From Paludibacteraceae bacterium (GTDB lineage: Bacteria > Bacteroidota > Bacteroidia > Bacteroidales > Paludibacteraceae): a stretch of 64,000 nt of DNA. A model generated the notes under the pieces. That model ran no database searches, was not told the origin of the DNA, and saw only the letters and a list, made by a program, of their open reading frames with translations. Position numbers and translations under genes: made by a program. The stretch spans positions 1-64,000 of the forward strand of contig JAKSNH010000012.1 in the NCBI GenBank assembly GCA_024399955.1, in the 5' to 3' direction. Numbering within the stretch: position 1 is the stretch's first letter; the number at the start of each line of letters is the position of its first letter. Shown piece after piece: positions 38,371-55,680 of the stretch.

Positions 38371-38382
38371 TAAAAGTGCTAT

Positions 38383-39767: not shown

Positions 39768-39792
39768 TTAACGTTAAAAATTAAAAAAGATA

Positions 39793-41103: not shown

Positions 41104-41128
41104 TAACGAAATTTAATTTATCAATTAT

Positions 41129-42229
41129 ATGGAAAGAATAAATGTAACTCGTTCCTCAATGCCTTCATTTGAGGAGTATTGCGAAGAGATTCGTCCCTTA
41201 TGGGAGAGTCGTTGGTTAAGTAATCGTGGTGCTATTAGTAAAGAGTTTGAGCAGCAACTGCAATCTAAACTTGGTCCCAAGCATATTGCTCTCTTTGCCA
41301 ATGGTCACGTGGCAATGGAAGTGGCTATTGATGCCTTCCATTTTCCCAAGGGCAGTGAAGTCATTACTACTCCGTATACCCACTGCTCCACTACACATGC
41401 TATTGTGCGCAATGGTTTGAAGCCGGTCTTTGTGGATGTGAATGAAAAAGACTTGACGATTGATGTTAACCAAATTGAGAAGTATATCACTCCTAAGACG
41501 GTTGCTATTGTTACAACCCACGTTTATGGTTATATCTGTGATGTAGAAGCATTGGATGCTATCGCAAAACGTCATAATATCAAGGTCATCTATGATGCTG
41601 CCCATGCGTTTGGTGTTACCTATAATGGCAAAGGTATTGCCGAGTATGGCGATGCCGCTATGTTCAGTTGCCATGCTACTAAAGTGTTCCATACCATCGA
41701 AGGTGGTATAGTGGCTTTCAAGGATGACAAGGTTTTCTCTCAAGTGGATATTCTCACTAACTTTGGCTTTGTAGATGCAGAGCATGTAGCGTATGTTAGT
41801 ACTAATGCGCGTATGAACGAGTACGAAGCTGCTATGGGTATTTGTAACCTCCGTCATTTGGATGATGAGATAGCTAAGCGTAAGGCTGCGGCAGAGGTGT
41901 ATAATCGGATGTTGGGTAATGTGCCGGGCATCAAACTCATTCAACCTCAACCGAACGTAGTGATGAACTATAGTTACTATCCGGTCTTCTTTGATGGCTA
42001 CAAGCGCAACCGCAATGAAGTGCAGGCTTTATTAGCCGAGCATAATATCTTTGCTCGCAAGTATTTCTATCCCATTACGCCGGATTTAGATTGCTATGCT
42101 GCGGAATATGGTCAGTTAGATAATATCCCTGTTGCTCGTCATGCAGCGGATACGGTATTAACCTTACCCATGTATGCCGACCTTACTCCCGAACAGGCTA
42201 AACATATTTGTGAAATCATCCTTAGTTAA
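41129..42229 (+). CDS. DegT/DnrJ/EryC1/StrS sugar aminotransferase
   Basis: The enzyme transfers an amino group to a keto-sugar nucleotide with PLP. The 366-residue product has ALFANGHVAMEVAI for cofactor binding, VIYDAAHAFGVTYNGK with the Asp that holds the pyridine N, and FSCHATKVFHTIEGG with the Schiff-base Lys. Its loop after AHAFGV is short and normal, which makes it an internal reference for the insert in the paralogue at 49748. It lies 25 bases after the ABC ATPase gene. Confidence 0.93.
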   Translation: MERINVTRSSMPSFEEYCEEIRPLWESRWLSNRGAISKEFEQQLQSKLGPKHIALFANGHVAMEVAIDAFHFPKGSEVITTPYTHCSTTHAIVRNGLKPVFVDVNEKDLTIDVNQIEKYITPKTVAIVTTHVYGYICDVEALDAIAKRHNIKVIYDAAHAFGVTYNGKGIAEYGDAAMFSCHATKVFHTIEGGIVAFKDDKVFSQVDILTNFGFVDAEHVAYVSTNARMNEYEAAMGICNLRHLDDEIAKRKAAAEVYNRMLGNVPGIKLIQPQPNVVMNYSYYPVFFDGYKRNRNEVQALLAEHNIFARKYFYPITPDLDCYAAEYGQLDNIPVARHAADTVLTLPMYADLTPEQAKHICEIILS

Positions 42230-42257
42230 TCGTTAAACGTTAATCATCAATCTAATC

Positions 42258-42815
42258 ATGACAATCATCTCAACCGGCATTGAAGGCTTGGTAGAAATCC
42301 AACCTCAGGTCTTTCCTGATAGTAGAGGCGCATTCTGCGAACTATATAACGAAGAGCGTTATAAGGCGGCAGGTATATTGAATCATTTCTGCCAGGAGAA
42401 TCTATCTAAATCTACCTACGGAGTGATTCGTGGTCTGCATTTTCAACTCAATCCGTATAGTCAGGCTAAGTTGGCTACTTGCCTTCAAGGTCGGGTATTG
42501 GATGTGGCGGTGGATCTGCGTAAAGGCAGCCCTACTTATGGTCAATGGCGCAGCGTTATATTGGATAGTGATAAACATAATGAGTTCCTTATCCCTCAGG
42601 GCTTTGCCCATGGTTTTGCTGTACTGACAGAGACTGCGGTGTTCAATTATCGTTGCGATAACCCTTATCATCCTGAATCCGAAGGAGGCATTGCTTATGA
42701 TGATCCGGATTTGAATATTGATTGGATGATTCCTGTGGATAAACGTATCGTATCGGAAAAGGATGCGCATCGTACATTGCTCAAGGATGTGCAAACTAAT
42801 TTTGAGTGGAAGTAA
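42258..42815 (+). CDS. rfbC: dTDP-4-dehydrorhamnose 3,5-epimerase family protein
   Basis: The 185-residue cupin enzyme matches RfbC: FPDSRGAFCELYNEERYKAAG, FCQENLSKSTYGVIRGLHFQ with the active-site His-adjacent motif, RVLDVAVDLRKGSPTYG, and FLIPQGFAHGFAVLTE. The enzyme epimerises the 4-keto sugar on the way to dTDP-L-rhamnose or another deoxysugar. RmlA, RmlB and RmlD are not in the window, so the product could be another 6-deoxyhexose. The gene overlaps none of its neighbours; the MBOAT gene follows three bases later. Confidence 0.92.
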   Translation: MTIISTGIEGLVEIQPQVFPDSRGAFCELYNEERYKAAGILNHFCQENLSKSTYGVIRGLHFQLNPYSQAKLATCLQGRVLDVAVDLRKGSPTYGQWRSVILDSDKHNEFLIPQGFAHGFAVLTETAVFNYRCDNPYHPESEGGIAYDDPDLNIDWMIPVDKRIVSEKDAHRTLLKDVQTNFEWK

Positions 42816-42818
42816 CGC

Positions 42819-44366
42819 ATGCTCTTCAACTCCCTTCCATATCTCCTTTTCTTCCCAATAGTCTTCATTCTCTATTGGTTGATTGATTATTTTATTGGGC
42901 GCAAGTACCCCTCGGCTACCATTGTGCAGAATATCTTCTTGCTCATTGCGAGTTATATCTTCTATGCATGGTGGGATTGGCGGTTCTTGGGCTTACTCCT
43001 TGGTATGAGTTTTATCTCATGGTTGGCCGGTTATCTGCTGACGAATACCCTTGCTGGGGGGGGTATGACCCATTCGCGCAAAATTGTGATGTGGTCAGCC
43101 GTATCAATTGACTTGCTCACCCTCGGCTTTTTTAAGTACTATAATTTCTTCGTCGAGTCGTTCTGCAATATCTTTGCAATTAGCAATCATCAATCAGCAA
43201 TTACAATCATCCTTCCTCTTGGCATCTCGTTCTTCACTTTCCAAGCCATCTCCTACGTCGTTGATGCCTATCACCAAAAATTATCAATCAGCAATAATCA
43301 ATCTTCAATAAGTCAATTGGTAGATTGCTTTCTCTACATCGGTTTCTTCCCCAAGCTCTTAGCCGGTCCTATTGAGCGTCCCTCGCATCTCATTCCTCAG
43401 ATTCAGCAGCGCCGTATTTTTACTTATGAATTAGGCACGGATGGTCTCCGCCAGATCCTATGGGGATTATTTAAGAAAGTCGTTGTGGCTGATAACTGTG
43501 CCGTGTATGTGAATGCCGTGTATGCGGACTATACGAATCAGAGTGGTAGCACTTTGTTGCTTGCTGCTATTCTGTATACGATTCAGATTTATGGAGACTT
43601 CTCCGGATATAGTGATATGGCTATCGGCAGTGCTAAGTTGTTGGGCTTTAGGTTTAAAGATAACTTCTTGTTCCCGTACTTCAGCCGCAATATGGGTGAG
43701 TTCTGGAAACGTTGGCATATCAGTCTCAATACATGGTTCGTGGACTATGTCTATATTCCCTTAGGCGGTAGCCGTCCAAAGATTCCAAACTCAATCATCA
43801 ATAATCAATCATCAATAATCAATGTAGAAAAATACACTAAACTGATGACCATTCGCAATACGCTCATCATTTTCCTACTTAGTGGTCTCTGGCATGGTGC
43901 CGATTGGAGTTTCGTAGCATGGGGTGGGTATCACGGTTTGTTGTTGGTTATTCTTATTCTTTTTGGTTGGAATACCAAGTATGATCATGTTGTTGCGCAT
44001 GACCGTTTGTTTCCGTCCATCAAGGAACTATCTCAGATGTTATTAGTCTTTATTTTGGCTACCATCGGCTGGATGATGTTCCGTGCAGATAATATGGGTA
44101 TGTTTGTGGATTATTGTCGCAATATGATACAACCAAGTCTGATTTCTGTTCCTTGGCTGATGACGCGTGATTTCTATCTACCGCTTGTTATTTATATTGC
44201 AGTGATGACGGTTGTAGATTGGCTTTATCGCAAGGATGCTTCTAAGGTACTTACCATTCCTTGCCGTTATCATTGGGTACGTTGGCTGATATACTATGCC
44301 TTGATAGTTATCTGCTACTATGGAGCTCCATCTGAAACAATTCAATTTATCTATCAGCAGTTCTAA
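42819..44366 (+). CDS. MBOAT family O-acyltransferase (AlgI/DltB-like) with in-frame repeat tracts
   Basis: The 515-residue product is a polytopic membrane protein with the MBOAT signatures FPKLLAGPIERPSHL, YGDFSGYSDMAIGSAKLLG, FWKRWHISLNTWFVDYVYIP and LLSGLWHGADWSF with the catalytic His. Such enzymes acetylate extracellular polysaccharides. Three loops contain unusual Asn/Ser/Gln/Ile runs (AISNHQSAITI, ISNNQSSISQLV, SIINNQSSIINVEK) encoded by AATCA-type DNA repeats at 43179-43212, 43279-43320 and 43788-43827. The SGNH-like gene follows two bases later. Confidence 0.93.
   Translation: MLFNSLPYLLFFPIVFILYWLIDYFIGRKYPSATIVQNIFLLIASYIFYAWWDWRFLGLLLGMSFISWLAGYLLTNTLAGGGMTHSRKIVMWSAVSIDLLTLGFFKYYNFFVESFCNIFAISNHQSAITIILPLGISFFTFQAISYVVDAYHQKLSISNNQSSISQLVDCFLYIGFFPKLLAGPIERPSHLIPQIQQRRIFTYELGTDGLRQILWGLFKKVVVADNCAVYVNAVYADYTNQSGSTLLLAAILYTIQIYGDFSGYSDMAIGSAKLLGFRFKDNFLFPYFSRNMGEFWKRWHISLNTWFVDYVYIPLGGSRPKIPNSIINNQSSIINVEKYTKLMTIRNTLIIFLLSGLWHGADWSFVAWGGYHGLLLVILILFGWNTKYDHVVAHDRLFPSIKELSQMLLVFILATIGWMMFRADNMGMFVDYCRNMIQPSLISVPWLMTRDFYLPLVIYIAVMTVVDWLYRKDASKVLTIPCRYHWVRWLIYYALIVICYYGAPSETIQFIYQQF
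43179..43212 (+). repeat. AATCA-type repeat tract inside the MBOAT gene, first
   Basis: The tract TTAGCAATCATCAATCAGC and its continuation is in frame and encodes an Asn/His/Gln/Ser loop between membrane segments. Confidence 0.7.
43279..43320 (+). repeat. AATCA-type repeat tract inside the MBOAT gene, second
   Basis: The tract contains ATCAATCAGCAATAATCAAT and encodes ISNNQSSISQL in a loop just before FPKLLAGP. Confidence 0.75.
43788..43827 (+). repeat. AATCA-type repeat tract inside the MBOAT gene, third
   Basis: It has two direct copies of AATCATCAATAATC and encodes SIINNQSSIIN in a loop after the YVYIPLGGSR motif. Confidence 0.8.
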
Positions 44367-44368
44367 TT

Positions 44369-45433
44369 ATGAAAAAGTTTGCTACATATCTCTCCCTTTT
44401 CTTGCTACCGCTGATAGTAATTATGTTGCCTTTCTTTATAGAGGATCCCTTTAAAATCTTGCATCACTATGACCGTTACTATCCGGAGGATGGTCAACCC
44501 TTGTATCTTAATATCAACCGCAGTTATGTCTCTACTCGTATGTATCTGCAGTATAAGGACTCTTTCCATTATAACTCATTTATCTTTGGTAGTAGTCGCA
44601 GTGAGCACTTTTTAGTGGATGAATGGAAAAAGTATTTGCCGGATAGTTCATCCTGTTTCCATTTTGACGGATATAGTGATCCTCTATATTCTATTCATAA
44701 AAAAATCATGTTCTTAGATAAGCAACATGCTCCTATTGATAATGTAATCATTTGTTTTGATGCCGAGAACCTTGCTAAATCTTCTCCAATTGAGAACGAC
44801 CATCTGCGAGCATTACCGCCTCTGTTGGATTATTCATGGGGTACATTTGAGATGTTTTGTAAGACGCACTTGAATGTTTATTTTGAGCCTCATTTCTTTG
44901 TGAGCTATATCGATTTTCTCTTACATCACCAAATCAAACCTTACATGACGGAGTGGGGTATATGGGATATTAATCCGTCTTATTACGTTCTGCCTTATAA
45001 CGAGCGTGAACGTCCATTAGATGGACCATATTATGCTGAAAACCATTATTCCGATGCTCTATTAGGGGCTTTTCATAATAATGAGCAACATGCTGGTCAA
45101 CCCTATGAACCGGTTATTACCGATCAAGGCAAGTCGTTATTATCAGATATTGCGGCTGTTCTTGACCGCCATCATACTAATTATCGCATCATCCTCAATC
45201 CCATGTATGATAAAAGACCTTTGGCAGAGGCAGACGTTGCTGTGCTTACTTTTCTCTTTGGAAAGAACCTATATAACTTCACTGGTGTCAACATTTTCAC
45301 GACGGATTATCATAATTACAACGATCCTGCCCATTTCTCAGACAGGGTGGCAAGTAGCATTATGGAAATCATCTACGAACCGGACACCCTCCGCCAGCAA
45401 CAAATGATAGACTCAATATATATGCGAAATTGA
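44369..45433 (+). CDS. Membrane-anchored SGNH-like protein, partner of the MBOAT protein
   Basis: The 354-residue product has an N-terminal membrane anchor (YLSLFLLPLIVIMLPFFI) and an extracytoplasmic domain. Near residue 70 it has FIFGSSRSEHF, with Ser in a GSS motif, and near the C-terminus YNDPAHFSDRV with an Asp-x-x-His pair. Ser...DxxH is the catalytic pattern of the SGNH-like proteins (AlgJ/AlgX/DltD type) that work with MBOAT acyltransferases. With the gene directly before it, it likely moves an acyl group onto the exported glycan. It lacks a recognisable full family signature. Confidence 0.8.
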   Translation: MKKFATYLSLFLLPLIVIMLPFFIEDPFKILHHYDRYYPEDGQPLYLNINRSYVSTRMYLQYKDSFHYNSFIFGSSRSEHFLVDEWKKYLPDSSSCFHFDGYSDPLYSIHKKIMFLDKQHAPIDNVIICFDAENLAKSSPIENDHLRALPPLLDYSWGTFEMFCKTHLNVYFEPHFFVSYIDFLLHHQIKPYMTEWGIWDINPSYYVLPYNERERPLDGPYYAENHYSDALLGAFHNNEQHAGQPYEPVITDQGKSLLSDIAAVLDRHHTNYRIILNPMYDKRPLAEADVAVLTFLFGKNLYNFTGVNIFTTDYHNYNDPAHFSDRVASSIMEIIYEPDTLRQQQMIDSIYMRN

Positions 45434-45480
45434 AAAATAATGCATTTTATCAAAAAAATCTTTAAAAAGTTGCACATATA

Positions 45481-45512
45481 TTTGTGTATGTGCTTTTTTT
45501 TTTGTATCTTTG
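45481..45512 (+). promoter_or_regulatory. Promoter of the Panacea pair
   Basis: TTTG (45481-45484) and TATCTTTG (45505-45512) have a 20-base spacer. The leader to the ATG at 45700 is about 180 bases long and has no other gene that I can support. Confidence 0.85.
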
Positions 45513-45699
45513 CGGCGAAATTACGGATAAATGTACAAGAGTAAAAAATATTCTCCAACATTTCAGAGCTTTTCTATCAGAGAAAGAAACTGGATGTTGT
45601 GATAGGGTTATGCCCTCTGCTTAGCATTATGCGCTGAGTGAGGAGGATGTGAAGAGAGTTATAGAATGTATTGTGAAATAAATAAAATGACGAATAACA

Positions 45700-46179
45700 A
45701 TGGAAAATGTTATTAATGTTGCATCTTATATTGCCCAAAGATATTTTGATACTTTTGGGGAAACAATAGGTGAGATGAAGTTACATAAACTACTGTATTT
45801 TACTCAGCGTGAATGTTTTATTCAAAAAAATAAGCCTATGTTTGCTGAGCAATTTGCGGCTTGGCGCTATGGTCCTGTTATGACGAATATTCGCTCTTTG
45901 TATGCTCATGGTTTGTTGAATAAGTCTTTGTCGGTTGCTGCTCAAAAAGAGTATGCCACAGTGTTTGACTTTGTATTCAAACAGTACGCGCCTAAAGATG
46001 CTTGGAGTTTAAGTCGACTGTCGCATGGAGAGTGTTCGTGGAAACGGGCACGTCATGGGTTGAGAGAGGAAGAAAACGGAATGACTCCCTTGTTACTTGT
46101 GGATATTCGTAGAGATGCCGCAATCGCCAGGATTCGCAGAATGATTATTGACAGAATGAATAAGGTAGAAAATGTATGA
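45700..46179 (+). CDS. Panacea (DUF4065/SocA-like) antitoxin-like protein
   Basis: The 159-residue product has the Panacea core: VASYIAQRYFDTFGETIGEM, KLHKLLYFTQRECF, and EQFAAWRYGPVMTNIRSLYA, followed by LSRLSHGECSWKRARHG. Panacea-domain proteins are known as antitoxin modules paired with many unrelated toxins. It overlaps the next ORF by ATGA, as expected of a two-gene toxin-antitoxin operon, and has its own promoter. It sits as an island between two parts of the polysaccharide locus. Confidence 0.88.
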   Translation: MENVINVASYIAQRYFDTFGETIGEMKLHKLLYFTQRECFIQKNKPMFAEQFAAWRYGPVMTNIRSLYAHGLLNKSLSVAAQKEYATVFDFVFKQYAPKDAWSLSRLSHGECSWKRARHGLREEENGMTPLLLVDIRRDAAIARIRRMIIDRMNKVENV

Positions 46180-46598
46180 AAATTACGGAACAACAAATAG
46201 AATGTTTAGATACACTTGTAGTGGAGCGACTCTGTTCACACAAGGTTGATAATCTTGCTTTGGTTGAGCGTTTCTCCAATCCGCGTAACAATGTTTTAGT
46301 GGACATTATCAAATCTCAAAAAGCTATTAATAGAGATGAAGCTAATACAATTGCATACTATGTCGTCAAAACTAAGGATGGAAAATTGCTAGCCTATTTC
46401 TCATTAAAATGTGGTGAACTCTATGAGGCATACGCACAAAAAGAAGCAATTGAAACTCAGTATTGGTTGCGAGTCCTATATGGCTCAAAGTTAATAAACA
46501 AAGAGAAATATGATGAATTATTGGTGGATTTGAATGAACTGATGCGAATCATTACTGCAAGCATAAAAACGGTTAAAATTCAAATCAATCATCAATAA
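46176..46598 (+). CDS. Hybrid ORF: GNAT-toxin-like N-terminus, four-helix-bundle-like C-terminus
   Basis: The first about 85 residues (VERFSNPRNNVLVDIIKSQK, IAYYVVKTKDGKLLAYFSLK) look like the start of GNAT-type toxins that pair with Panacea antitoxins. At LYEAYAQKEAIETQYWLRVLY the text changes to one resembling the end of four-helix-bundle (23S rRNA intervening-sequence type) proteins: ETxYWL, then KEKYDELLVDLNELMRI and SIKTVK. The acetyl-CoA-binding part of a GNAT is missing, so the toxin is probably inactive or remodelled. The stop codon lies in an AATCA repeat tract. Both family assignments are by eye. Confidence 0.6.
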   Translation: MKITEQQIECLDTLVVERLCSHKVDNLALVERFSNPRNNVLVDIIKSQKAINRDEANTIAYYVVKTKDGKLLAYFSLKCGELYEAYAQKEAIETQYWLRVLYGSKLINKEKYDELLVDLNELMRIITASIKTVKIQINHQ

Positions 46599-46662
46599 TC
46601 CATCACCAATAATCAATCATCAATAAGCAATCATCAATAATTAATAAGCAATAATCAATTTT
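46578..46662 (+). repeat. AATCA-type repeat tract, intergenic
   Basis: About 85 bases of AATCATCAATAA/AATCAATAAGCA units with no coding function beyond the last codons of the preceding ORF. It ends just before the ATP-grasp gene. The same units occur in frame in the MBOAT gene. Confidence 0.85.
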
Positions 46663-46666
46663 TTAG

Positions 46667-47881
46667 ATGAGCAACGCGAAGAAAAAAATAATGTTCCTCG
46701 GAGGTATCCCATACATCATACCGGCTATTGAGGCTGCGCATGAATTGGGTTACTATGTCATTACGGCAGATTACCTCCCCAATAACCCCGCCCATCAATA
46801 TGCAGATGAGTATGTCAATGTCAGCATCATTGATAAAGATGCCGTCCTAAAAGTAGCCCGAGAAAAGCAGATTGATGGCGTGTTGTCCTTTGCTGTCGAT
46901 CCGGGTGCAACAACCGCGGCGTATGTTGCAGAGCAAATGGGGTTACCTAATGTGGGACCATATAAGAGTGTTGAGATATTGCAGAATAAAACACTTTTTC
47001 GCCAATTCTTAGCCGAGCATGGTTTCAATGTGCCGGCTGCTAAAGGGTATGATTCTATAGAGGCAGCTCTAAAGGATACCGATTGGCTGAGCTGGCCGAT
47101 GATTGTTAAGCCGGCTGATGGGAGTGGCAGTAAGGGGGTAACCAAGGTGGAACGAAGAGAGGATTATCAATCTGCATTAGAGGTCGCTCTACAAAAATCA
47201 TTAGGCAAGAAAGTGATTGTAGAGGAATTTATTGAGATGAGTGGTTATCAAAGTGGTAGTGATAGTTTTTCTATTGATGGTGAGTTAGTGTATTGTACCT
47301 TTGATGATCAGCGTTTTGATAGTAATGCCATCAATCCCTATACTCCGGCATCTCATGCTTGGCCCAGTACGATGTCTATAGATGCCCAGCAATACTTGCA
47401 TAGTGAATTGCAACGTTTATTGACCTTACTCAAAATGGGCACCGCTTTGTATAATATAGAAGTTCGTGTAGGTAAGAATGGGAAACCCTATATTATGGAA
47501 GTTAGTCCTCGTGCAGGAGGTAATCGTTTAGCTGAATTGCTAACTTTGGCTACAGGAAGTGATTTGGTCAAAGCTTCGGTTGCTGCTGCTATGGGAGAAG
47601 ATGTTAAACAGTACATTCATCCGGTACAATACGACGGTTTTTGGATGGTTGTGGTATTGCATGCTGAGAAAGCAGGTATATTCCGTGGAATTAAAGTAGA
47701 TGATGCGATTAAAACGAATATTATCCGTGAGAATTTGAATGTCAAACCGGGCGATGCCGTGCATGGCTTTGATTGTGCCACGAATACTATTGGCTCATTC
47801 TTTATGCGGTTTGAAACCAAAGAAGACTTAGGTGTGTTTGTTGCTCACCAAAGAGATTATATACAAGTGATAGTAGACTGA
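46667..47881 (+). CDS. ATP-grasp ligase-like protein 1
   Basis: The 404-residue product starts with a nucleotide-like domain (KIMFLGGIPYIIPAIEAAHE, VDGVLSFAVDPG-like DGVLSFAVDPGATTAAYVA). It continues with an ATP-grasp fold: WPMIVKPADGSGSKGVTKV (phosphate loop), KVIVEEFIEMSGYQSGSDS and YIMEVSPRAGGNRLAEL with the metal ligands. These enzymes join a carboxylate to an amine or thiol through an acyl phosphate. Substrate unknown; the neighbours suggest amino-acid decoration of a sugar. It overlaps the next gene by one base. Confidence 0.88.
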   Translation: MSNAKKKIMFLGGIPYIIPAIEAAHELGYYVITADYLPNNPAHQYADEYVNVSIIDKDAVLKVAREKQIDGVLSFAVDPGATTAAYVAEQMGLPNVGPYKSVEILQNKTLFRQFLAEHGFNVPAAKGYDSIEAALKDTDWLSWPMIVKPADGSGSKGVTKVERREDYQSALEVALQKSLGKKVIVEEFIEMSGYQSGSDSFSIDGELVYCTFDDQRFDSNAINPYTPASHAWPSTMSIDAQQYLHSELQRLLTLLKMGTALYNIEVRVGKNGKPYIMEVSPRAGGNRLAELLTLATGSDLVKASVAAAMGEDVKQYIHPVQYDGFWMVVVLHAEKAGIFRGIKVDDAIKTNIIRENLNVKPGDAVHGFDCATNTIGSFFMRFETKEDLGVFVAHQRDYIQVIVD

Positions 47882-48837
47882 TGAAAGCGATAGGCGGATA
47901 TTTTGAATTTGAACTGCATAAGGGACCCCATTACCATAAGCAGGCATTACGATTAAACACCGGTCGTAATTGTTTGGAGTATATTTTGCGTTGTAGAGGT
48001 TACGAACACATCTATATTCCCTATTATGGATGTGAAGTTATGTTAGAACCAATCAATAAGTTAGGTGTCCGTTATACATTCTATCGTATCAACGAACATT
48101 TAGAACCTATTGACTTGCCTGAATTAGGTGACAAGGAGGCATTCTTCTATACCAACTATTATGCTCTAAAGAATGACTTTATAAAGGCATTGGCTTTGCG
48201 ATATGGCAATCAACTGATTGTTGATAATGCACAGGCATTCTTTGCTCAACCATTGGAAGGTATAGATACGTTCTATACTGCTCGTAAGTTCTTCGGGGTA
48301 GCCGATGGCGCATACTTATATTTGTGTGGGAAAGATAATGCAGACGAATTGCCACAAGATGAATCGTGGAATCGTATGAACCATTTGCTGATGCGTCACG
48401 ATGGAGGTGCACAGTTTGGTTTTGAGGCGTTTCATACAAATAATGGCAGTTTACATAACCAACCTATTAAACGGATGTCACGGGTGACGGAGGCTATTAT
48501 GCAGTCCATAGACTATGCTGAGGTGATGCAACAAAGAAGAAATAACTTCAAGTTCTTACATCAACAATTAGGAGAGCAAAACGGTCTAAAGCATGTGATT
48601 AATGGACCTGTATTAGGATTAGACTATCCATTTTACATAGAGGATCATACGTTGCGTCAACGATTAATAGATAACCAAATTTTCATTGCTAAATTATGGC
48701 CTAATATAGCCGACTGGTGTGAGGAAGGAAGTTTGGAATGGAACCTAATGAACTACACCTTCCATTTACCGATAGATCAGCGGTATGGAATAGACGATAT
48801 GCAACGAATAGTAGATGTAATAAAGAATAGACAATGA
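47881..48837 (+). CDS. DegT-like PLP-fold protein
   Basis: The 318-residue product has a reduced DegT-like fold: LRLNTGRNCLEYILRCRG, IYIPYYGCEVMLEPI, LIVDNAQAFFAQPL with the Asp that contacts PLP, and DTFYTARKFFGVADGAYLYL with a likely Schiff-base Lys. It is about 50 residues shorter than the aminotransferase at 41129, so it may be a specialised aminotransferase or a non-catalytic relative. The start overlaps the ATP-grasp stop and the end overlaps the next glycosyltransferase start, so it is part of one operon. Confidence 0.75.
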   Translation: MKAIGGYFEFELHKGPHYHKQALRLNTGRNCLEYILRCRGYEHIYIPYYGCEVMLEPINKLGVRYTFYRINEHLEPIDLPELGDKEAFFYTNYYALKNDFIKALALRYGNQLIVDNAQAFFAQPLEGIDTFYTARKFFGVADGAYLYLCGKDNADELPQDESWNRMNHLLMRHDGGAQFGFEAFHTNNGSLHNQPIKRMSRVTEAIMQSIDYAEVMQQRRNNFKFLHQQLGEQNGLKHVINGPVLGLDYPFYIEDHTLRQRLIDNQIFIAKLWPNIADWCEEGSLEWNLMNYTFHLPIDQRYGIDDMQRIVDVIKNRQ

Positions 48838-49751
48838 AACGTCAGGAACAACAAATTTTAGTATCGGTTAGTACAATTGTGTATAATCATGAACGCTTTT
48901 TGCGTCAATGTATTGAGGGCGTTTTAAATCAGCAGACTAACTTTGCGTTTGAGTATCTCATCCATGATGATTGCTCTACGGATGGTTCTGCCGATATAAT
49001 TCGTGAGTATGCAGCTAAATATCCGGATGTTATCAAGCCTGTTTTTGAAACGGAGAATCAATATTCTAAAGGTGGTCCTTGGGGCTCTGCTGTATGGAAT
49101 TATCCTCGTGCCAAAGGTAAATATATTGCCCTTTGTGAGGGAGATGATTATTGGACGGACCCACTGAAGTTGCAAAAGCAAGTGGATTTTATGGAGTCCC
49201 ATCCGGACTATAGTGTATGCTTCTGCGATTATCGCAATTATAATATTTATACCAATCAATATTTGGAGCCCGAATACACCCGTTTGATGCGAGAACGTGG
49301 CGAAGCAGATGGTATGGATTTAGATATAGATACTATGTTTCGTCGTTGGGTTACGATGCCGTTGACGATTCTTTTCCGCGCTGATGCATTGGATTTTAAT
49401 TTGGTGCATCAATACAAATACTATCGAGACACACACGAAACCTATCACTTAATGCTGAATGGCAAATGCCGTCTTATGAATTTCGTGGGTGCTATGCATA
49501 ATATGCACAATGGTGGAATTGCTACAAATTTAAAAATAACTGAGAGCATACAAATTCATATTAATGTATCAGAAGAATTGTATTTGCATAATTTAGATAA
49601 AGATACTAAAAATAATTTGATATCTGCGTATGCTTGGAAATTACGTTATACGCGTCCGTTGAGTTTAGCTCGTGTTATTTGCGCAACTAAAATATTTAAC
49701 CTAAATCATAATATTTGGTTATACATTAAGAAATATAGTAAGAAGAAATGA
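48834..49751 (+). CDS. Family 2 glycosyltransferase
   Basis: The 305-residue product has an N-terminal GT-A domain: VSVSTIVYNHERFLRQCIEG, YLIHDDCSTDGSADIIREYA, and YIALCEGDDYWTDPLKLQKQ with the metal-binding Asp pair. It is paralogous to the gene at 59942; the two agree closely in the first 120 residues and differ after. No C-terminal membrane helix is seen. It overlaps both neighbours by four bases. The sugar donor cannot be read. Confidence 0.92.
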   Translation: MKRQEQQILVSVSTIVYNHERFLRQCIEGVLNQQTNFAFEYLIHDDCSTDGSADIIREYAAKYPDVIKPVFETENQYSKGGPWGSAVWNYPRAKGKYIALCEGDDYWTDPLKLQKQVDFMESHPDYSVCFCDYRNYNIYTNQYLEPEYTRLMRERGEADGMDLDIDTMFRRWVTMPLTILFRADALDFNLVHQYKYYRDTHETYHLMLNGKCRLMNFVGAMHNMHNGGIATNLKITESIQIHINVSEELYLHNLDKDTKNNLISAYAWKLRYTRPLSLARVICATKIFNLNHNIWLYIKKYSKKK

Positions 49752-51436
49752 ATAATAAACCTCAAATCACCGTTACATCCCCACTTCTTCCCAACTTAGA
49801 GGAGTACAATACCTTGCTTCAGGACATTTGGTCGCGTAAGTGGATTACCAACAATGGGCATTATCACCAAGAGTTGGAGGCAGCCCTAGCTAAGTACCTT
49901 GGGGTGGAGTATATCTCCCTCTTTACCAATGGTACACTGCCGCTGATTACGGCTTTGCAGGCGCTCGGTATCACTGAAGGCGAAGTCATCACTACGCCGT
50001 ACAGTTTTGTGGCTACCAGCCATTCTATTTGGTGGAATAAACTCAAGCCGGTCTTTGTGGACATAGATGAGAATACTTGCGGTATGGACCCGGCTAAGAT
50101 TGAGGCTGCTATCACTCCCAATACGGTAGCTATCATGCCGGTGCATTGCTATGGATGCCCCTGCGATGTGGAGGCTATTGACGCCATTGCCAAACGCCAC
50201 AACCTCAAAGTTATCTACGATGCCGCACATGCGTTTGGTGTAAAAGTAAAAGCCCCCAAGCCCCCTAAAGGGGGTGTGTTGGGTTCTGCCGATCCAATAC
50301 TATATGAGCGGCTTGAGGAGTTCGCGAAAGAGAATCGCAATCATCCTACCCAAGCAGAAGAAATTCTATGGTCTATCCTCTCGCGTACTCGTGAAGATCG
50401 AGCTCCCCAACCCCCTAAAGGGGGAGTATGTCTTGGGGGCTATAAATTCCGCCGTCAACATGTCATAGGTCAGTATATCGCTGATTTTGTGTGCTTGGAA
50501 AAAATGCTCATTATTGAGTTGGATGGTAAGTATCATTCCTTGCCCGACCAAATGGTAGATGATGTTGCTCGTACCAATTATCTCAATCGTCTTGGTTATC
50601 AGGTTCTTCGTTTTACTAATGAGGAAATTCTTTGTGATACGGATAATGCTTTAGCTAAAATCTTAGACGCTCTTCAACACCCCCTTCAGGGGGCTTGGGG
50701 GCATCTTCAACACCCCCTTCAGGGGGATGGGGGGCTGGTGTCCATTTTGGAGTGGGGCGATTTGAGTACGTTAAGTTTTCATGCCACGAAGGTATATAAT
50801 ACCATTGAAGGTGGAGCTATGGTGATGCATAGCGCGGAGATGAAGTACGATATAGATAACCTCAAGAACTTCGGTTTCCGCGGTGAAACAACTGTCGTTG
50901 CTCCAGGTATTAATAGTAAGATGGATGAGATGCGTGCAGCCTACGGTCTGCTTAACTTGCGTCAGGTGGATGCTGCTATCGCTGCTCGCAAAGCGGTTGC
51001 AACGAAGTATGTCGAGGCTCTCAAGGAAGTCAAGGGCATCAAACTCTTCCCTTACGAAATAGAGCAAACTAGAAATCTCCCCCTTCAGGGGGAGTCGGAG
51101 GGGGCTTTTAGTTGGAACTTCGCCTATTTCCCCATCTTAGTGGATGACTCTTTCCCAACACCCCCTTCAGGGGGACGGGGGGCTGGGGCTTTGTCTGCTC
51201 GCGACGCGCTCTACGAACACATGAAGTCCCAAGGTGTCCTTGGCCGCCGTTATTTCTATCCGTTAATTACGGACTTTGAACCGTATAAACATTTAGTGCC
51301 CTCCACCCTGCAGGGGGGAGTCGGAAGGGGGCTTCCTGTGGCTACGAAGTTAGCCTCGCAAGTCATCTGCCTCCCCATGCATCATGCACTTACGGATGCA
51401 GATGTTCATCGCGTTCTTGATTGTATATTGAAATGA
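49748..51436 (+). CDS. DegT-type aminotransferase interrupted in frame by a DUF559 cassette and palindromic repeats
   Basis: Flanking parts are a normal DegT aminotransferase: YISLFTNGTLPLITALQALG, VIYDAAHAFGVKVK, then after the insert VSILEWGDLSTLSFHATKVY with the Schiff-base Lys. Bases 50252-50737 (162 codons) insert a DUF559 domain, and three further short inserts (51079-51092, 51161-51174, 51304-51317 cores) add NLPLQGESEGA-, TPPSGGRGAG- and STLQGGVGRG-type loops. The frame is open throughout, so the gene may still be translated; the product is 562 residues against about 370 in the paralogue at 41129. Whether it remains active is uncertain. Start overlaps the previous gene, end overlaps the next. 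Confidence 0.9.
   Translation: MNNKPQITVTSPLLPNLEEYNTLLQDIWSRKWITNNGHYHQELEAALAKYLGVEYISLFTNGTLPLITALQALGITEGEVITTPYSFVATSHSIWWNKLKPVFVDIDENTCGMDPAKIEAAITPNTVAIMPVHCYGCPCDVEAIDAIAKRHNLKVIYDAAHAFGVKVKAPKPPKGGVLGSADPILYERLEEFAKENRNHPTQAEEILWSILSRTREDRAPQPPKGGVCLGGYKFRRQHVIGQYIADFVCLEKMLIIELDGKYHSLPDQMVDDVARTNYLNRLGYQVLRFTNEEILCDTDNALAKILDALQHPLQGAWGHLQHPLQGDGGLVSILEWGDLSTLSFHATKVYNTIEGGAMVMHSAEMKYDIDNLKNFGFRGETTVVAPGINSKMDEMRAAYGLLNLRQVDAAIAARKAVATKYVEALKEVKGIKLFPYEIEQTRNLPLQGESEGAFSWNFAYFPILVDDSFPTPPSGGRGAGALSARDALYEHMKSQGVLGRRYFYPLITDFEPYKHLVPSTLQGGVGRGLPVATKLASQVICLPMHHALTDADVHRVLDCILK
50252..50277 (+). repeat. Left inverted-repeat flank of the DUF559 cassette
   Basis: The 14-bp core CCCCCTAAAGGGGG is at 50261-50274, preceded by GCCCCCAAG. 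Read in reverse complement it equals 50677-50702 except for one base. Confidence 0.92.
50404..50440 (+). repeat. Palindromic repeat nested in DUF559
   Basis: The core CCCCCTAAAGGGGG is at 50411-50424, with CCCCAA before it and TTGGGG after it as outer complementary parts. It encodes PQPPKGGVCLG in a loop of the domain. Confidence 0.88.
50677..50702 (+). repeat. Right inverted-repeat flank of the DUF559 cassette
   Basis: The core CCCCCTTCAGGGGG is at 50680-50693, followed by CTTGGGGGC. Confidence 0.92.
50713..50726 (+). repeat. Tandem second copy of the right palindrome
   Basis: CCCCCTTCAGGGGG recurs 33 bases after the previous core, preceded by the same CTTCAACA and followed by a variant GGGGGGCTGG. 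Confidence 0.9.
51079..51092 (+). repeat. Solo palindrome in the aminotransferase, first
   Basis: CCCCCTTCAGGGGG sits in frame with no DUF559 and encodes LPLQGE, followed by GGAGGGGGCT-type sequence. Confidence 0.9.
51161..51174 (+). repeat. Solo palindrome in the aminotransferase, second
   Basis: CCCCCTTCAGGGGG in frame, encoding PPSGG, followed by ACGGGGGGCTGGGG. Confidence 0.9.
51304..51317 (+). repeat. Solo palindrome in the aminotransferase, third, degenerate
   Basis: CACCCTGCAGGGGGG-like text with a changed centre; the following GAGTCGGAAGGGGGCT matches the tail of the first solo copy. Confidence 0.7.
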
Positions 51437-52641
51437 ATACGAAGAAAAAAATAATGTCATCAATCATTTCACATAGGGTAACTAATTTAGAACCATCGCA
51501 GAGTTTAGTAATGGCTCAGCGGTTTCAAGAGATGCGCCAAAAAGGTGTTGATGTGGTAAGTTTTACATTGGGAGAACCAGATTTTGCTACGCCTAATCAT
51601 ATCAAAGATGCAATATGTAAGGCGGTGCATTCGGACTATTCTCACTATGGACCAGTTGCCGGATTGCAGAGTGTGCGAGAAACAATCAGTCGCTATTTGT
51701 TGAAGGAGAAACACATCGCTTATGCTCCTAATGAGTTGATTTTATCTGTTGGAGCCAAACAATCTATATGTAATTCGATACTTGCCTTGGTTAATTCCGG
51801 AGATGAAGTGATTATACCAACGCCGTGTTGGGTGAGTTATAGTGAAATGGTTAAATTAGCTGAAGGAACGCCGGTTTTTGTTAAGACTTGTGCAGAAACT
51901 GGATATAAGTTACAAGCAGGTGAATTGGAAGATGCGATTACCGATCGTACCAAATTGCTGATACTTTGTTCTCCGAATAATCCTACCGGAAGTATTTATT
52001 CTGCATCAGAATTAGGAGAACTAGTTCGTGTTTTGGAACGACATCCGAATATGTTTGTGATAAGTGATGAAGTCTATGCAGAAATTAATTATATAGGAGG
52101 CGCACCTTCGTTAACTGAATTTGCTTCTATTCAAGGTCGACTGATATATATAGATAGTGCAAGTAAAACGTATGCGATGCCAGGATACCGAATAGGGTGG
52201 ATGGCAAGTAAGAATAAAGAATTGATAGATGCTTGTTTGACTTTGCAAGGGCAATATAACACTTGTGCATGTTTAGTGTCTCAGAAGGCAGCAGAAACGG
52301 CTTGTGGGGGTAAACAGGATTGTGTGGAATTGATGCGAAAAGGATTTACTAAACGTCGGGAGTTGATGTGTGAATTAGCAAGTGATATACCGAATATTCG
52401 TTTTGCTAAACCGGATGGTGCGTTCTATCTTTTTCCCGATGTATCCGCTTACTATGGTGATGCTATTCACAATAGTGATGATATGGCAAATTATTTGTTA
52501 GAAACGGCACATGTAGCGGTAATGGCCGGTAGTGCGTATGGTGAGGATAACTGTATTCGAATATCCTTCTCCATGCCAGAAGATATAATCAAAAAAGGAA
52601 TGCAACGTATCAAAGATGCATTGATGCGACTGAAAAAATAA
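51433..52641 (+). CDS. Class I/II (aspartate-type) aminotransferase
   Basis: The start at 51433 overlaps the preceding stop (ATGA). The 402-residue PLP enzyme has the aspartate aminotransferase order: VVSFTLGEPDFATPNHIKDA, LILSVGAKQSICNSILAL, CSPNNPTGSIYSASELGEL, VISDEVYAEINY and IDSASKTYAMPGYRIGWMAS with the Schiff-base Lys, then a C-terminal Arg in NCIRISFSM for the substrate carboxylate. Substrate is probably aspartate or a related dicarboxylic or aromatic amino acid. Its place between ATP-grasp genes suggests supply of a building block for the locus rather than general metabolism. Confidence 0.92.
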   Translation: MNTKKKIMSSIISHRVTNLEPSQSLVMAQRFQEMRQKGVDVVSFTLGEPDFATPNHIKDAICKAVHSDYSHYGPVAGLQSVRETISRYLLKEKHIAYAPNELILSVGAKQSICNSILALVNSGDEVIIPTPCWVSYSEMVKLAEGTPVFVKTCAETGYKLQAGELEDAITDRTKLLILCSPNNPTGSIYSASELGELVRVLERHPNMFVISDEVYAEINYIGGAPSLTEFASIQGRLIYIDSASKTYAMPGYRIGWMASKNKELIDACLTLQGQYNTCACLVSQKAAETACGGKQDCVELMRKGFTKRRELMCELASDIPNIRFAKPDGAFYLFPDVSAYYGDAIHNSDDMANYLLETAHVAVMAGSAYGEDNCIRISFSMPEDIIKKGMQRIKDALMRLKK

Positions 52642-52654
52642 AATTGAGATAATA

Positions 52655-53866
52655 ATGACTAACATGAAAAATATATTAGTCGTGCCAGGTGGACAATGGC
52701 AAGTGCCTATTGTCAAGAAGATACAGTCAATGGGTTACAATGTAATTGCGGTTAATCCTTATAAAGATTCTCCGACATTTGCATTTTCAGATACGTGTAT
52801 TCAGTCAGATATTTTTAAACAAGATAATTACTTGGAGCAGGTCCGTGCTATGCAACCAGTGGCCGTTTTGTCTGATGAGTGCGATATTGCTACAGAATTA
52901 GTGGCTGATTTAGCGAACAAATTAGGAGTGCGTTCACAAACAGTGCCCATGGCGCAACTCTATACCAATAAGGTGAAGATGCGCGAATTTTTACAAAAGC
53001 ACAATCTCCCTTGTCCTGCATTTCAAATCTGCCACTCTTTGGATGAGGCAATGGATTTCTATCGTCGTTTGAATAGGCAAATGATTATCAAACCAATTGA
53101 TAGTAATAGCAGTCATGGGGTGTTTACCATCAATAATGAGAACGAATTGTTGCAACATTTTGATGAGGCACTTTCATTCTCTCGTATGGATAAAGCTGTG
53201 ATATGTGAACAGTATATTCATGGTACTGAATTTACGGTAGATGGTATCAAGACGGAGCATGGTCATACATGTTTAGCCATCTCAGAGAAAAAGCACTATG
53301 AGTATAATGAAAATGTGGCTTACGAACTATTCTTTTCACATGACAATCCCAATTACGACTATAATCGTCTTCGTGAAATTAATGATAGTTATGTGAATCT
53401 GAGCGGATTACCTTTTGGCTTGACACACGCGGAATATAAATACGAGGATGGTGAGTTTTATTTAATAGAGATAGGTGCCCGCGGTGGAGGAAATTTAATT
53501 TCGGCAGAGATTGTGCCATGTATGTCAGGTTACGATAACTATGAGACTCTTATTAAGATGGCGTTAGGTGAACCTGTTGAAAAAGTACCCGCAGTAGATG
53601 AAAAACTAAAGAATCGTTGTGCAGTATTGGAGTTCTTTGATGCTCCGGGTAATGGTGGAAGAGTTACTCGTATTGAAGGTGAAGATTTCTTAAAGAACAA
53701 TCCTAACATATTGTCCTATCAATTTAATTTCAAAGAAGGAGATGCTATTTTGCCTGCGGTTTGTGATACGGCTCGAATAGGTTTTTATATCGCGTATGCA
53801 GAGAGCAGGCAGGAAATGCTTGATTTAATGCAAGAGATTAAAGAAAAAGTGCAATTTATTTATTAA
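52655..53866 (+). CDS. ATP-grasp ligase-like protein 2
   Basis: The 403-residue product has an N-terminal VVPGGQWQVPIVKKIQSMGY domain and an ATP-grasp fold with QMIIKPIDSNSSHGVFTI, AVICEQYIHGTEFTVDGIK and FYLIEIGARGGGNLISAEI as phosphate loop and metal ligands. It is a paralogue of the gene at 46667 (both have the GG-x-N metal motif). The start could be the ATG at 52664. The RraA-like gene follows four bases later. Confidence 0.88.
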   Translation: MTNMKNILVVPGGQWQVPIVKKIQSMGYNVIAVNPYKDSPTFAFSDTCIQSDIFKQDNYLEQVRAMQPVAVLSDECDIATELVADLANKLGVRSQTVPMAQLYTNKVKMREFLQKHNLPCPAFQICHSLDEAMDFYRRLNRQMIIKPIDSNSSHGVFTINNENELLQHFDEALSFSRMDKAVICEQYIHGTEFTVDGIKTEHGHTCLAISEKKHYEYNENVAYELFFSHDNPNYDYNRLREINDSYVNLSGLPFGLTHAEYKYEDGEFYLIEIGARGGGNLISAEIVPCMSGYDNYETLIKMALGEPVEKVPAVDEKLKNRCAVLEFFDAPGNGGRVTRIEGEDFLKNNPNILSYQFNFKEGDAILPAVCDTARIGFYIAYAESRQEMLDLMQEIKEKVQFIY

Positions 53867-53870
53867 AATC

Positions 53871-54521
53871 ATGGAAGATATAAAATCTAAAATCATTGAT
53901 TACATCCGCCGCAACCGTGTATGTACGACGGAGGTGGCAGACTGCCTTGGTAAAAAAGGCGTGTTGGAAGATGTTATGCCCATCAATCGTGGACATTTCA
54001 AGGTAGGCAATATCAAGTGGGTATATGCTAATGCAGAGAGTAACTGGGATGTGCATGAGCAGATTATCTCCACTCAAGAGAATGATGTAGTCTTTATTGA
54101 GGCATTTGATTGTGGTAAACGTGCTATCATTGGCGAGTTAGTAAGTAAATATATTTTGCTATATCGTCAAGCAAGTGCCATTATTTGCAACACCAAGTTC
54201 CGTGATGCGGGTGCCTTACTTCGTGAAAACTATCCTATTTGGTGTACTGGTTTCACTCCGGTAGGCTGTTTTAATGTAAAACCTAAGCAAGATTTGGATG
54301 CCCAAGTTAAGGCAGAGCACATGGCTATGTATGATGGTGCGATTGCTGTATGTGACGATTGTGGTGTGGTTATTATTCCTAAGGAACAGCATACGGAGGA
54401 GTTTTACCAAAAACTCGTAGCCATTGAGGAACAAGAAGATATTTGGTTCAATCGCTTGGACCATTATAAGGAAAATACATTTGAAATTGTTTGTTTGAAA
54501 AATTATTTGAAGGAGAAATAA
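53871..54521 (+). CDS. RraA-like / HMG aldolase-like protein
   Basis: The 216-residue product has the RraA fold pattern: TTEVADCLGKKGVL near the start, VVFIEAFDCGKRAIIGELVS, AIICNTKFRDAGALL with the conserved RD, and YPIWCTGFTPVGCF. Family members are either RNase E inhibitors or class II aldolases acting on 4-hydroxy-2-oxo acids. RNase E control is implausible within this operon, so a lyase or aldolase step on a sugar-acid or keto-acid intermediate is more likely. The assignment rests on pattern and I hold it moderately. Confidence 0.78.
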   Translation: MEDIKSKIIDYIRRNRVCTTEVADCLGKKGVLEDVMPINRGHFKVGNIKWVYANAESNWDVHEQIISTQENDVVFIEAFDCGKRAIIGELVSKYILLYRQASAIICNTKFRDAGALLRENYPIWCTGFTPVGCFNVKPKQDLDAQVKAEHMAMYDGAIAVCDDCGVVIIPKEQHTEEFYQKLVAIEEQEDIWFNRLDHYKENTFEIVCLKNYLKEK

Positions 54522-54523
54522 AT

Positions 54524-54787
54524 ATGTTTTATAAAGTATTGGAAAAATATCTTACAAAGAAGTATAAAAAGGATGGTATGGATACAAAGCGTTCAATTGC
54601 GTTGGCGCATACAATGGTTACAGATCTAAAAGATTGTGACATTCCTTTTGCTCAAAAATTATGGTGTCTAAAGAGAGGGTTTCGTTCAACACGGTATCAA
54701 CAATATGGTTTGACGGAGAAGAATTATATGGATTATCTCTCAGATAAACAGTATTATCAACTACATCCTCTCAATAGTTTTGGATAA
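54524..54787 (+). pseudogene. 5' part of a frameshifted sugar-transfer ATP-grasp gene
   Basis: An AAGGAG ribosome site at 54510-54515 precedes the ATG. The 87-residue product contains DTKRSIALAHTMVTDLKDCD and ends YYQLHPLNSFG. This is the N-terminal part of an ATP-grasp of the sugar-transfer associated type, where the text normally goes on through a WINDKLTxKYM-like segment. That segment is present, but in another frame, starting at 54781. A one-base indel in the AGTTTTGG run at 54776-54783 would join the two. It may be a true mutation, slippage or a sequencing error. Confidence 0.7.
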
Positions 54788-54801
54788 ATGACAAACTGAC
54801 A

Positions 54802-55680
54802 TTGAAATATATGTTGCCTGAATATGTTTATATAGATGGAACATCAGATACAAAGTTTCGATTGATGCCCAAGTATTACTTATATGTAGAGAACGATGGG
54901 CACTTTACATATTTGGAAGATGCACCTGTCGAATTGAAACATGATAAGTATTTTCTTCTAAATCTTATCAAGGTCATTAAGGAAGTTGCTATGAAACCCA
55001 ATAATGGTAGTAGTGGAATAGGATTCGTACATCTTCGATATGAAAATGATACAATATTTTGGAATGATGATGTTTTGACTGAGGTTGAATTAGTCGAAAA
55101 ACAAGATTTGCTTCGAGGATATATTGTAATTGAATATATTCACCAACATGAGCAACATCGTAAAGTTTGGCCGAGTTCAGAGAATACTCTTCGTATTGTT
55201 GCTGTACGCGAGATGAATGATAAGTATAATGGTGGTGATGTTCGTATTATTTCTTCCTATGTGCGTTTTGGTACAAAGGTTTCGAAAGGAGTGTGCAACA
55301 TGGCAGCAGGTGGTTTGAATTTGTCTTTTGATTGGGAAACAGGTAAGTATGGTAATTTTATGAATAGACATTTAAAATATTGTCCTGATGGCAATATAAG
55401 ATTATTTGAACATCCGGATACCCATGTCTCAATCATCGGAGAGTATATCCCCCATTTAGATAAAATAAAAGCTGCTGTATATGAAGTTTGTAATCACTTA
55501 TCTTCTCTAGAATATTATGGATTAGATATAATTGTTGAGCAGGATAGTGTTCGGGTGTTAGAGGTGAACTCTTTACCAGGATTAGATAGCATCCAAATTT
55601 TAAATGGCCCAATATTTAGAAATCCATTAGCAGCACCATTCTTTGAGAGAAAATTGAAATTAAAAGGCATATTAAAGTAG
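54802..55680 (+). CDS. 3' part of the frameshifted sugar-transfer ATP-grasp gene
   Basis: The frame is open from 54781, where WINDKLTLKYML continues the 5' part; the ATG at 54802 is only the first in-frame start. The product has the ATP-grasp text AMKPNNGSSGIGFVHLRYEN, RGYIVIEYIHQHEQ, TLRIVAVREMNDKY and SLEYYGLDIIVEQDSVRVLE followed by VNSLPGLDS. Sugar-transfer ATP-grasp proteins are found in polysaccharide loci beside glycosyltransferases. If translated alone it would lack the N-terminal domain. A+T content is visibly higher than in the genes to the left. Confidence 0.8.
   Translation: MKYMLPEYVYIDGTSDTKFRLMPKYYLYVENDGHFTYLEDAPVELKHDKYFLLNLIKVIKEVAMKPNNGSSGIGFVHLRYENDTIFWNDDVLTEVELVEKQDLLRGYIVIEYIHQHEQHRKVWPSSENTLRIVAVREMNDKYNGGDVRIISSYVRFGTKVSKGVCNMAAGGLNLSFDWETGKYGNFMNRHLKYCPDGNIRLFEHPDTHVSIIGEYIPHLDKIKAAVYEVCNHLSSLEYYGLDIIVEQDSVRVLEVNSLPGLDSIQILNGPIFRNPLAAPFFERKLKLKGILK

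Follow-up and report, generated by a model that had tools for sequence, protein, structure and literature searches.

Inteins and homing-endonuclease introns bring a nuclease into conserved genes, exist as empty and filled alleles and rely on splicing (PMC3943268). Rickettsia palindromic elements, which are 105-146 bp in length, lie in frame in conserved protein genes, where they are translated and tolerated, and in the sections of the 2007 review that deal with them no enzyme is mentioned and the movement of such small palindromic elements is treated as an open question (PMC2229807). The repetitive extragenic palindromic (REP) and REPIN repeats that are associated with the enzyme RAYT (REP-associated tyrosine transposase, TnpA-REP) are tagged palindromes found mostly between genes, with a few inside open reading frames (ORFs), and the enzyme is a Y1 transposase (PMC3733652). 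A DUF559 gene has been assigned to the EDxHD family (PMC9403480). The subject of the present analysis is a 489-bp cassette that encodes a DUF559 nuclease domain and lies in frame within a sugar aminotransferase gene of a Paludibacteraceae bacterium, in a stretch of 64,000 nucleotides (the window) that forms positions 1 to 64,000 of contig JAKSNH010000012.1, assembly GCA_024399955.1. On the evidence set out below the cassette is probably one of a class of selfish in-frame elements, predicted to be translated with their hosts and left unspliced, which would spread by nuclease-provoked copying into empty sites. No published description of in-frame DUF559 cassettes was found in the literature searched, outside which lie papers available on bioRxiv alone and most subscription papers, and none of the known kinds of element compared here has all of their features.

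The window aminotransferase gene and its cassette

The host gene belongs to the DegT/DnrJ/EryC1 sugar aminotransferases and its reading frame continues through the cassette. The features of the gene, together with a paralogue in the window, are as follows.

49748..51436, + strand: host gene, a DegT/DnrJ/EryC1 sugar aminotransferase with cassette, a single open frame of 562 amino acids (Pfam)
49748..50251, + strand: N-terminal part of the host (alignment against 16 empty sequences)
50252..50740, + strand: cassette inserted relative to empty homologues, two host codons apparently being replaced (alignment)
50252..50277, + strand: left palindromic end, encoding the peptide APKPPKGGV (sequence, arm search)
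50309..50677, + strand: DUF559 nuclease domain, PF04480, with conserved acidic and His residues present (Pfam)
50401..50427, + strand: additional palindrome in frame within the nuclease, opposite a gap of 13-15 columns in eight other alignment rows
50677..50702, + strand: right palindromic end, copy 1, inverted relative to the left end (25/26)
50710..50736, + strand: right palindromic end, copy 2, in tandem (palindrome search)
50741..51436, + strand: C-terminal part of the host, which starts SILEWGD and includes SFHATK (sequence, alignment)
51070..51104, + strand: in-frame palindrome-only insert NLPLQGESEG, core 51079-51092 (palindrome search, alignment)
51152..51184, + strand: in-frame palindrome-only insert PTPPSGGRGAG, core 51161-51174, missing from 18 other aligned sequences
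51301..51330, + strand: degenerate in-frame palindrome STLQGGVGRG (palindrome search, alignment)
41129..42229, + strand: paralogous DegT aminotransferase, empty at the cassette site (Pfam, alignment)

The Pfam match to PF04480 (E 1.3e-29) covers residues 188-310 of the 562-residue ORF and model positions 2-109 of 109, and it divides the DegT match of the protein into two stretches; SFHATK in the C-terminal part of the host is presumably the motif that carries the pyridoxal phosphate lysine. An earlier reading of the window, made from the sequence alone, had proposed a PDDEXK-like DUF559 domain on an in-frame segment of 486 bases with 26-base inverted flanks containing one mismatch, and the DUF559 domain, the open frame and the flanks were borne out. 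The arms at 50252-50277 and 50677-50702 pair over 26 nucleotides with one mismatch (96% complementary), exactly as claimed, and frame 0 alone of the six frames of the 486-nucleotide segment is free of stops, a state that was reached in 4 of 20000 base shuffles. The segment also has a strong single-strand fold (z -5.2). The conserved nuclease residues (E, D and ExDGxxH) are invariant in 9/9 aligned domains, and the palindrome within the window nuclease (50401-50427) adds a loop of about 13 residues that the eight other rows lack. At a threshold of E 0.001 a single DUF559 match is found in the window genome, and the database gene call for the protein (P0001) starts at a GTG at 50276, inside the left end. 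The palindrome core, CCCCCTNNAGGGGG (14 nucleotides), is present in six copies in the window, for which the shuffle mean is 0.00, and the whole 2.02-Mb genome likewise has six copies, every one of them within gene 49748-51436 (G000:C4). One lies at the left end of the cassette, two at the right end, one in the interior of the nuclease and two in frame in the C-terminal half of the host. With six copies in a single gene, it is as if the gene had arrived with them or keeps collecting them.

A nuclease in frame within a conserved gene is an intein-like arrangement, and the sequence-only reading had drawn that comparison. The likeness holds for the in-frame placement and the nuclease and breaks down over splicing. 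A Pfam scan of the window protein gave aminotransferase families, DUF559 and MTES_1575 only, without a splicing (Hint) domain, and an Rfam search of 49500-51600 gave no group I or group II intron, the sole match being to a snoRNA at E 0.67, below cut-off. The residues at the right junction differ among hosts, and forms that carry a short repeat or a deletion are in frame as well. That the insert is an intein or intron, removed from the protein or the RNA, is thus very improbable, and the cassette, unlike such elements, is predicted to stay in the protein.

The nuclease domain has a clear homologue in PDB entry 3hrl ('Endonuclease-Like Protein', E 2.1e-21), which, unlike the domain in the cassette, is a separate chain of 104 residues without a host protein. 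The second match, marginal and not significant (E 0.51), is to the mobile intron protein 3r3p, which we take to be I-Bth0305I. Described members of the EDxHD and Vsr-like homing endonucleases are found in introns or are free-standing, unlike the cassette. A reading of the cassette as part of a defence system was considered and rejected; PADLOC gave no match, and PHROGs gave two weak matches, one of them named HNH endonuclease.

The N-terminal part of the host was searched for in 81 genomes of the window's genus and close homologues were found in 21. From 24 matches, 19 sequences, the window included, were aligned, and L123-L126 and L128 were dropped as distant. Of the 19, the window, G462 and G011 have a filled site, and the other 16 are empty at precisely that point; among the empty sequences are two paralogues from the window genome, namely the gene at 41129, whose lack of the insert had already been pointed out, and G000:C6 (82% identity). 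As the homologues are not all carriers, the suggestion of a mobile element that spares the frame of its host is supported. The empty allele reads AHAFGV-TYK-GK-SILEWGD and the filled allele AHAFGV-KVK-[cassette]-SILEWGD, and because the host resumes at 50741 relative to the empty homologues, the cassette is placed at about 50252-50740 (489 bp), apparently replacing two codons. A related cassette occupies the equivalent point in another kind of DegT gene, in G028. Later loops of the DegT gene hold extra in-frame peptides in several homologues, and in the loop of the 51070..51104 insert the peptides of L107 and L109 resemble palindrome readings, as judged from the peptides and not the DNA. The surroundings of the gene, at 37345-55680 of the window, resemble a surface-polysaccharide cluster, with an ABC transporter ATPase, several aminotransferases, an epimerase-like gene, a glycosyltransferase and ATP-grasp enzymes recognised from their translations only.

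Host genes that carry the cassette

The phenomenon is far wider than the single gene in the window: over 20 kinds of gene in Bacteroidota host an in-frame DUF559, LeuRS, MetRS, MetH, MutS, RecG and RecJ among them. A protein search with the insert, in which host-sized proteins were allowed, gave 254 matches. Among the 120 of these that were listed, about 20 host labels could be recognised from precomputed Pfam accessions, the names being assigned from the accession numbers and seven proteins having no label. The commonest hosts among the 120 listed were DegT (42), CinA/PncC (11), MetH (10), PF28486 (9), MetRS (9) and SpoIID (8), although some of the listed proteins have the nuclease near one end, that is, without host on both sides. 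NCBIfam models, applied to 16 chosen proteins, identified RecG, RecJ, MutS, IcmF (two sites), acetate-CoA ligase, MetH (two sites), LeuRS (two sites) and HsdR; below cut-off were a SiaA-like phosphatase, a RecB-like helicase and a PurQ-like protein with the nuclease C-terminal, and two proteins remained unnamed. DUF559 was found at E 1e-10 or better in 157/395 Bacteroidia genomes, and open frames of at least 300 amino acids surround 80 of the best-scoring 150 matches listed from these genomes. When an alignment of in-frame nucleases was used as query, the best 80 of 578 loci were named, and in 63 of these the open frame extends more than 60 codons to each side of the nuclease; eight are free-standing, and fusion is confined to the C side in six and to the N side in three. 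By record title all 80 come from Bacteroidota except for four from Ignavibacteria, and the named carriers include Flavobacterium micromati DSM 17659, F. frigidimaris DSM 15937, F. cucumis DSM 18830 and Psychroflexus curvus. The catalytic pattern is intact in 113/116 chimeras, the 116 being those of the 120 listed proteins in which the domain exceeds 90 residues. Chimeras outside the class Bacteroidia were seen at L183, L184, L200 and L212, which are Ignavibacteria by record title. At L185 a DUF559 domain with inverted arms stands ahead of an apparent guanylate kinase, recognised by its sequence, and it was in guanylate kinase that a Rickettsia palindromic element was investigated (PMC2229807).

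In 14/14 genomes with a filled LeuRS, mostly drafts but with G374 a single contig, no locus other than the nuclease-bearing LeuRS exceeds the TIGR00396 cut-off, and the LeuRS frame is unbroken in 13 of the 14. LeuRS is essential in bacteria, and the gene must therefore work with the cassette inside it. The insert codons are themselves under purifying selection, the ratio of nonsynonymous to synonymous rates (dN/dS) of the nuclease being 0.06-0.15 in unsaturated pairs. The predicted structure of the window chimera has a mean predicted local distance difference test score (pLDDT) of 77 with the nuclease folded, and the DegT fold is kept in the model, as its ten best PDB matches have target TM-scores of 0.81-0.86. 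Six of the seven stretches under pLDDT 50 (172-182, 215-228, 313-328, 445-451, 475-479 and 517-526) overlap peptides encoded by palindromes, and the seventh (376-387) has no such overlap.

A large number of the genomes are either incomplete or, by record title, metagenome bins, and it might be asked whether the chimeras are assembly artefacts or pseudogenes. A closely related insert is however present in the independent genome G462 and in protein clusters from other contigs (P0002-P0007), and chimeras occur in isolates and in single-contig genomes (G374, and the Flavobacterium and Psychroflexus strains); with a dN/dS of around 0.1 in addition, this explanation can for practical purposes be dismissed.

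Palindromic ends and dispersed repeats

Inverted arms were searched for in 180 nucleotides either side of the nuclease, pairs with a score of at least 12 being accepted. The 40 copies examined were picked for large open frames, so that their in-frame state is a matter of selection, and two of them (L096 and L101) have host on one side only. Arms were found in 25/40 copies, and in 23/38 of those with host on both sides, compared with 0/120 codon-shuffled pairs and 0/120 pairs from the same locus at the same spacing (Fisher p 4e-19). At a score of at least 11 the figure rose to 27/40 copies, compared with 0 codon-shuffled and 2 same-locus pairs of 120 each. Among the 80 named loci, arms were present in 32/63 in-frame and 6/8 free-standing copies, and in a search with a longer flank, without a matched control, 10/14 free-standing copies had inverted palindromes. 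The association of DUF559 with palindromes that was expected from the window alone is therefore found elsewhere in about half to three quarters of copies. A well-kept arm forms a hairpin bearing an outer tag, as in GACCTCACCCCTAACCCCTCTCC-GAA-GGAGAGGGG. Free-standing nuclease genes mostly end at or near the end of the domain, and the in-frame copies are without that stop. In four LeuRS genes from one bacterial family (L086, L088, L089 and L090) the nuclease is accompanied by very long linkers that are in frame and contain palindrome-like peptides.

In some genomes of genus g54 the tag-and-hairpin motif occurs as a dispersed repeat too, with 49 matches in G124, 24 in G505, 13 in G160 and 8 in G330, the reversed control giving 0. 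Matches were found in 9/11 genomes of the genus, those in G507 being only two element ends, and there were none in G518 and G253. When 46 copies were compared with the surrounding frames (40/49 of those in G124, 4/24 in G505 and 2/13 in G160, the ends of the LeuRS cassette being left out), 44 were found to lie outside long open frames, compared with 239/400 random positions in the same regions (p 2e-7). In the window's genus the core palindrome is present in 27/81 genomes.

The gene for a RAYT enzyme is flanked by inverted copies of the palindromic repeat, and in this the two systems are alike, the DUF559 gene lying between inverted palindromes in the window and in the copies elsewhere counted above. 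They are unlike in that the flanked gene encodes DUF559 and not a Y1 (HUH) transposase (no search for RAYT genes elsewhere in these genomes was made), and in that the whole unit can be in frame in host proteins. Dispersal of the REPIN kind is seen in some genomes of genus g54, whereas the window genome has all six cores in one gene. Such parallels give rise to a rival explanation, hairpin transposition of the REP/RAYT kind, in which the nuclease would have the palindromic ends as its substrate, possibly when these are folded into single-strand hairpins at the replication fork. Units would then jump widely, in-frame insertions in tolerated linkers would survive, and the reuse of a site would reflect tolerance and not homing. 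The dispersal of the end motif in G124, G505 and G160, mostly outside long frames, is in keeping with this explanation, as are the free-standing nuclease genes flanked by inverted palindromes, the short-repeat inserts that occupy the same loops and the single-strand fold of the window segment.

The sequence-only reading had also compared the cassette with a Rickettsia palindromic element. Rickettsia and Wolbachia palindromic elements are indeed alike in being palindromic inserts in frame in protein genes, and for the palindrome-only inserts of the window gene the comparison is apt, but it does not extend to the cassette, which encodes a nuclease domain.

Turnover at host sites and the proposed route of spread

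One methionine-synthase (MetH) linker in genus g54 was followed across genomes, and 30 of 36 matches, those with loci, were used. The linker is empty at 16 loci, holds short repeat inserts at five and full cassettes of two families at eight, and has a remnant at one, and all of these are open frames. The remnant allele, in G508, has kept both ends and lost most of the nuclease, and G414, which is counted among the empty alleles, has kept a stretch resembling the left end. On the tree of the host flanks the distribution of filled alleles requires 8 changes, for which the shuffled-label mean is 7.8, in other words a random scatter. In the sister species G518 and G507 the DNA flanks are 95% and 94% identical up to the site and the nucleases are 49.5% identical. 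Similar nucleases are found, moreover, in different hosts, since a nuclease with a PF28486 host is 91% identical to one with a DegT host (P0018 and P0038, the gene call of P0038 beginning at the nuclease), and the nucleases of P0015 and the full-length P0024 (PF28486 and DegT hosts respectively) are 84% identical. Between the window and G462 the insert core has 44/84 synonymous differences (proportion, pS, 0.52) and the host 192/242 (pS 0.79; p 4e-6), and by this measure the insert is younger than the host in that pair. From comparisons of this kind it is likely that the DUF559 cassettes are mobile. The MetH linker in L143, L148, L156, L134 and L155 holds in-frame peptides derived from other simple or repeat-like sequences, and gives the impression of a site at which small repeats of any sort collect.

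It could be argued that the domain was inserted long ago, has since been passed on vertically because it serves the host, and is patchy through loss. Purifying selection on the nuclease domain would be expected on such an argument, and at synonymous sites the divergence of the MetH family I elements is close to that of their hosts. The G518/G507 pair, with its two different nucleases between flanks 94-95% identical, already strains it, and it has further to accommodate the random scatter on the host tree, the same nuclease in two host families, the younger insert in the window pair and the palindromic ends, so that vertical inheritance is considered improbable.

The nucleases themselves were compared in a tree of 81 of 84 DUF559 domains (L024-L026 being left out), built from a short alignment of 119 columns and with many of its forks open. 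The free-standing or in-frame state changes 4 times on this tree, the shuffled minimum being 15. For the 56 in-frame rows, labels of host and site require 19 changes for 15 states, where the possible minimum is 14 and the shuffled minimum 34, and genus labels require 32 changes for 26 states (shuffled minimum 35). RecG cassettes of four bacterial families cluster together with one IleRS cassette, acetate-CoA ligase cassettes of two families form a cluster within which RecJ cassettes are nested, and phosphatase cassettes from two families are sisters. Such a pattern of sites and lineages is a prediction of allele-specific homing, and fits an ancient insertion with few tolerated sites as well. 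It tells against hairpin transposition, the nuclease lineages tracking the host site far better than shuffled labels do and coming close to the possible minimum. A further point against hairpin transposition is that no near-identical nucleases were found in different genes of one genome among the loci compared and the matches listed. Recent duplicates of a nuclease in two genes of a genome were sought by blastn between regions centred on the elements; among the matches listed, none that was both long and precise joined two different hosts, and 14 free copies in 12 regions, when compared, gave self-overlaps of neighbouring copies and matches of 68-74% only. Hairpin transposition is therefore regarded as a possible but doubtful account of the whole.

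The explanation preferred here, homing without splicing, can be set out as a series of steps. The cassette would be translated with its host and retained as a working extra domain on flexible linkers encoded by the palindromes. The nuclease, either within the chimera or produced from an internal start, would cut or nick an empty allele, which might be supplied by transfer or recombination, and repair would then copy the cassette into that allele. A hop to a new gene would be a rarer event, in which the palindromes were perhaps used as hairpins. The palindromes may also mark or protect the ends of the element, and loss of the nuclease would leave them as in-frame scars. Homing could proceed without splicing because the palindromic ends, it is proposed, read as stop-free flexible linkers, and LeuRS, MetH, MutS or a sugar enzyme would simply gain the invader as one more domain. 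By a small balance of probability, the elements may be assigned to a separate class of mobile element, comprising homing nucleases without splicing, in which palindrome-only copies would be scars and passengers and which would supply the autonomous partner of the in-frame palindromic elements, missing ever since these came to light in Rickettsia.

A number of observations weigh against homing by translated, unspliced cassettes. Inverted arms fall below threshold in 15/40 of the large-frame copies and in 31/63 of the named in-frame copies, and in 37 genomes of the window's genus the association of the palindrome with a strong DUF559 match (5/9 compared with 8/28) is not significant (p 0.23). 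The junction alignment that resolved the limits of the cassette did not disclose a target-site duplication; none was seen by eye at the DegT and MetH junctions, where the empty alleles have diverged. There is no sign of co-conversion either, host divergence beside filled sites being not reduced. The lower pS of the insert, which is found in 6/6 pairs of MetH family II, is found in only 4/6 pairs of family I, and slightly, and the pS pairs are neither mutually independent nor far from saturation. LeuRS cassettes of one site are spread over several separate groups of the nuclease tree, and fidelity to a site can stem from there being few tolerated linkers, the MetH linker being one that also holds unrelated repeat peptides. 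As regards function, the LeuRS of G146 is split near its C-terminus into frames of 880 and 245 amino acids, and a model of a LeuRS chimera, made from an alignment of 10 rows, reached a pLDDT of 53 and was not used.

Filled alleles are present in Flavobacterium and Psychroflexus strains that bear strain names or culture-collection names, and the explanation can therefore be put to a direct test. How homing nucleases can persist in conserved genes is usually explained by splicing (PMC3943268). If homing without splicing is the true explanation, a common selfish element of bacteria would be invading essential single-copy coding genes without a splicing device, and there would be an enzyme candidate for how in-frame palindromic repeats move. 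It would also account for the labels 'DUF559' and 'very-short-patch-repair' on housekeeping proteins, such as were seen among the protein matches of the insert, and the chimeras would constitute a natural library of positions at which enzymes tolerate a whole inserted domain.

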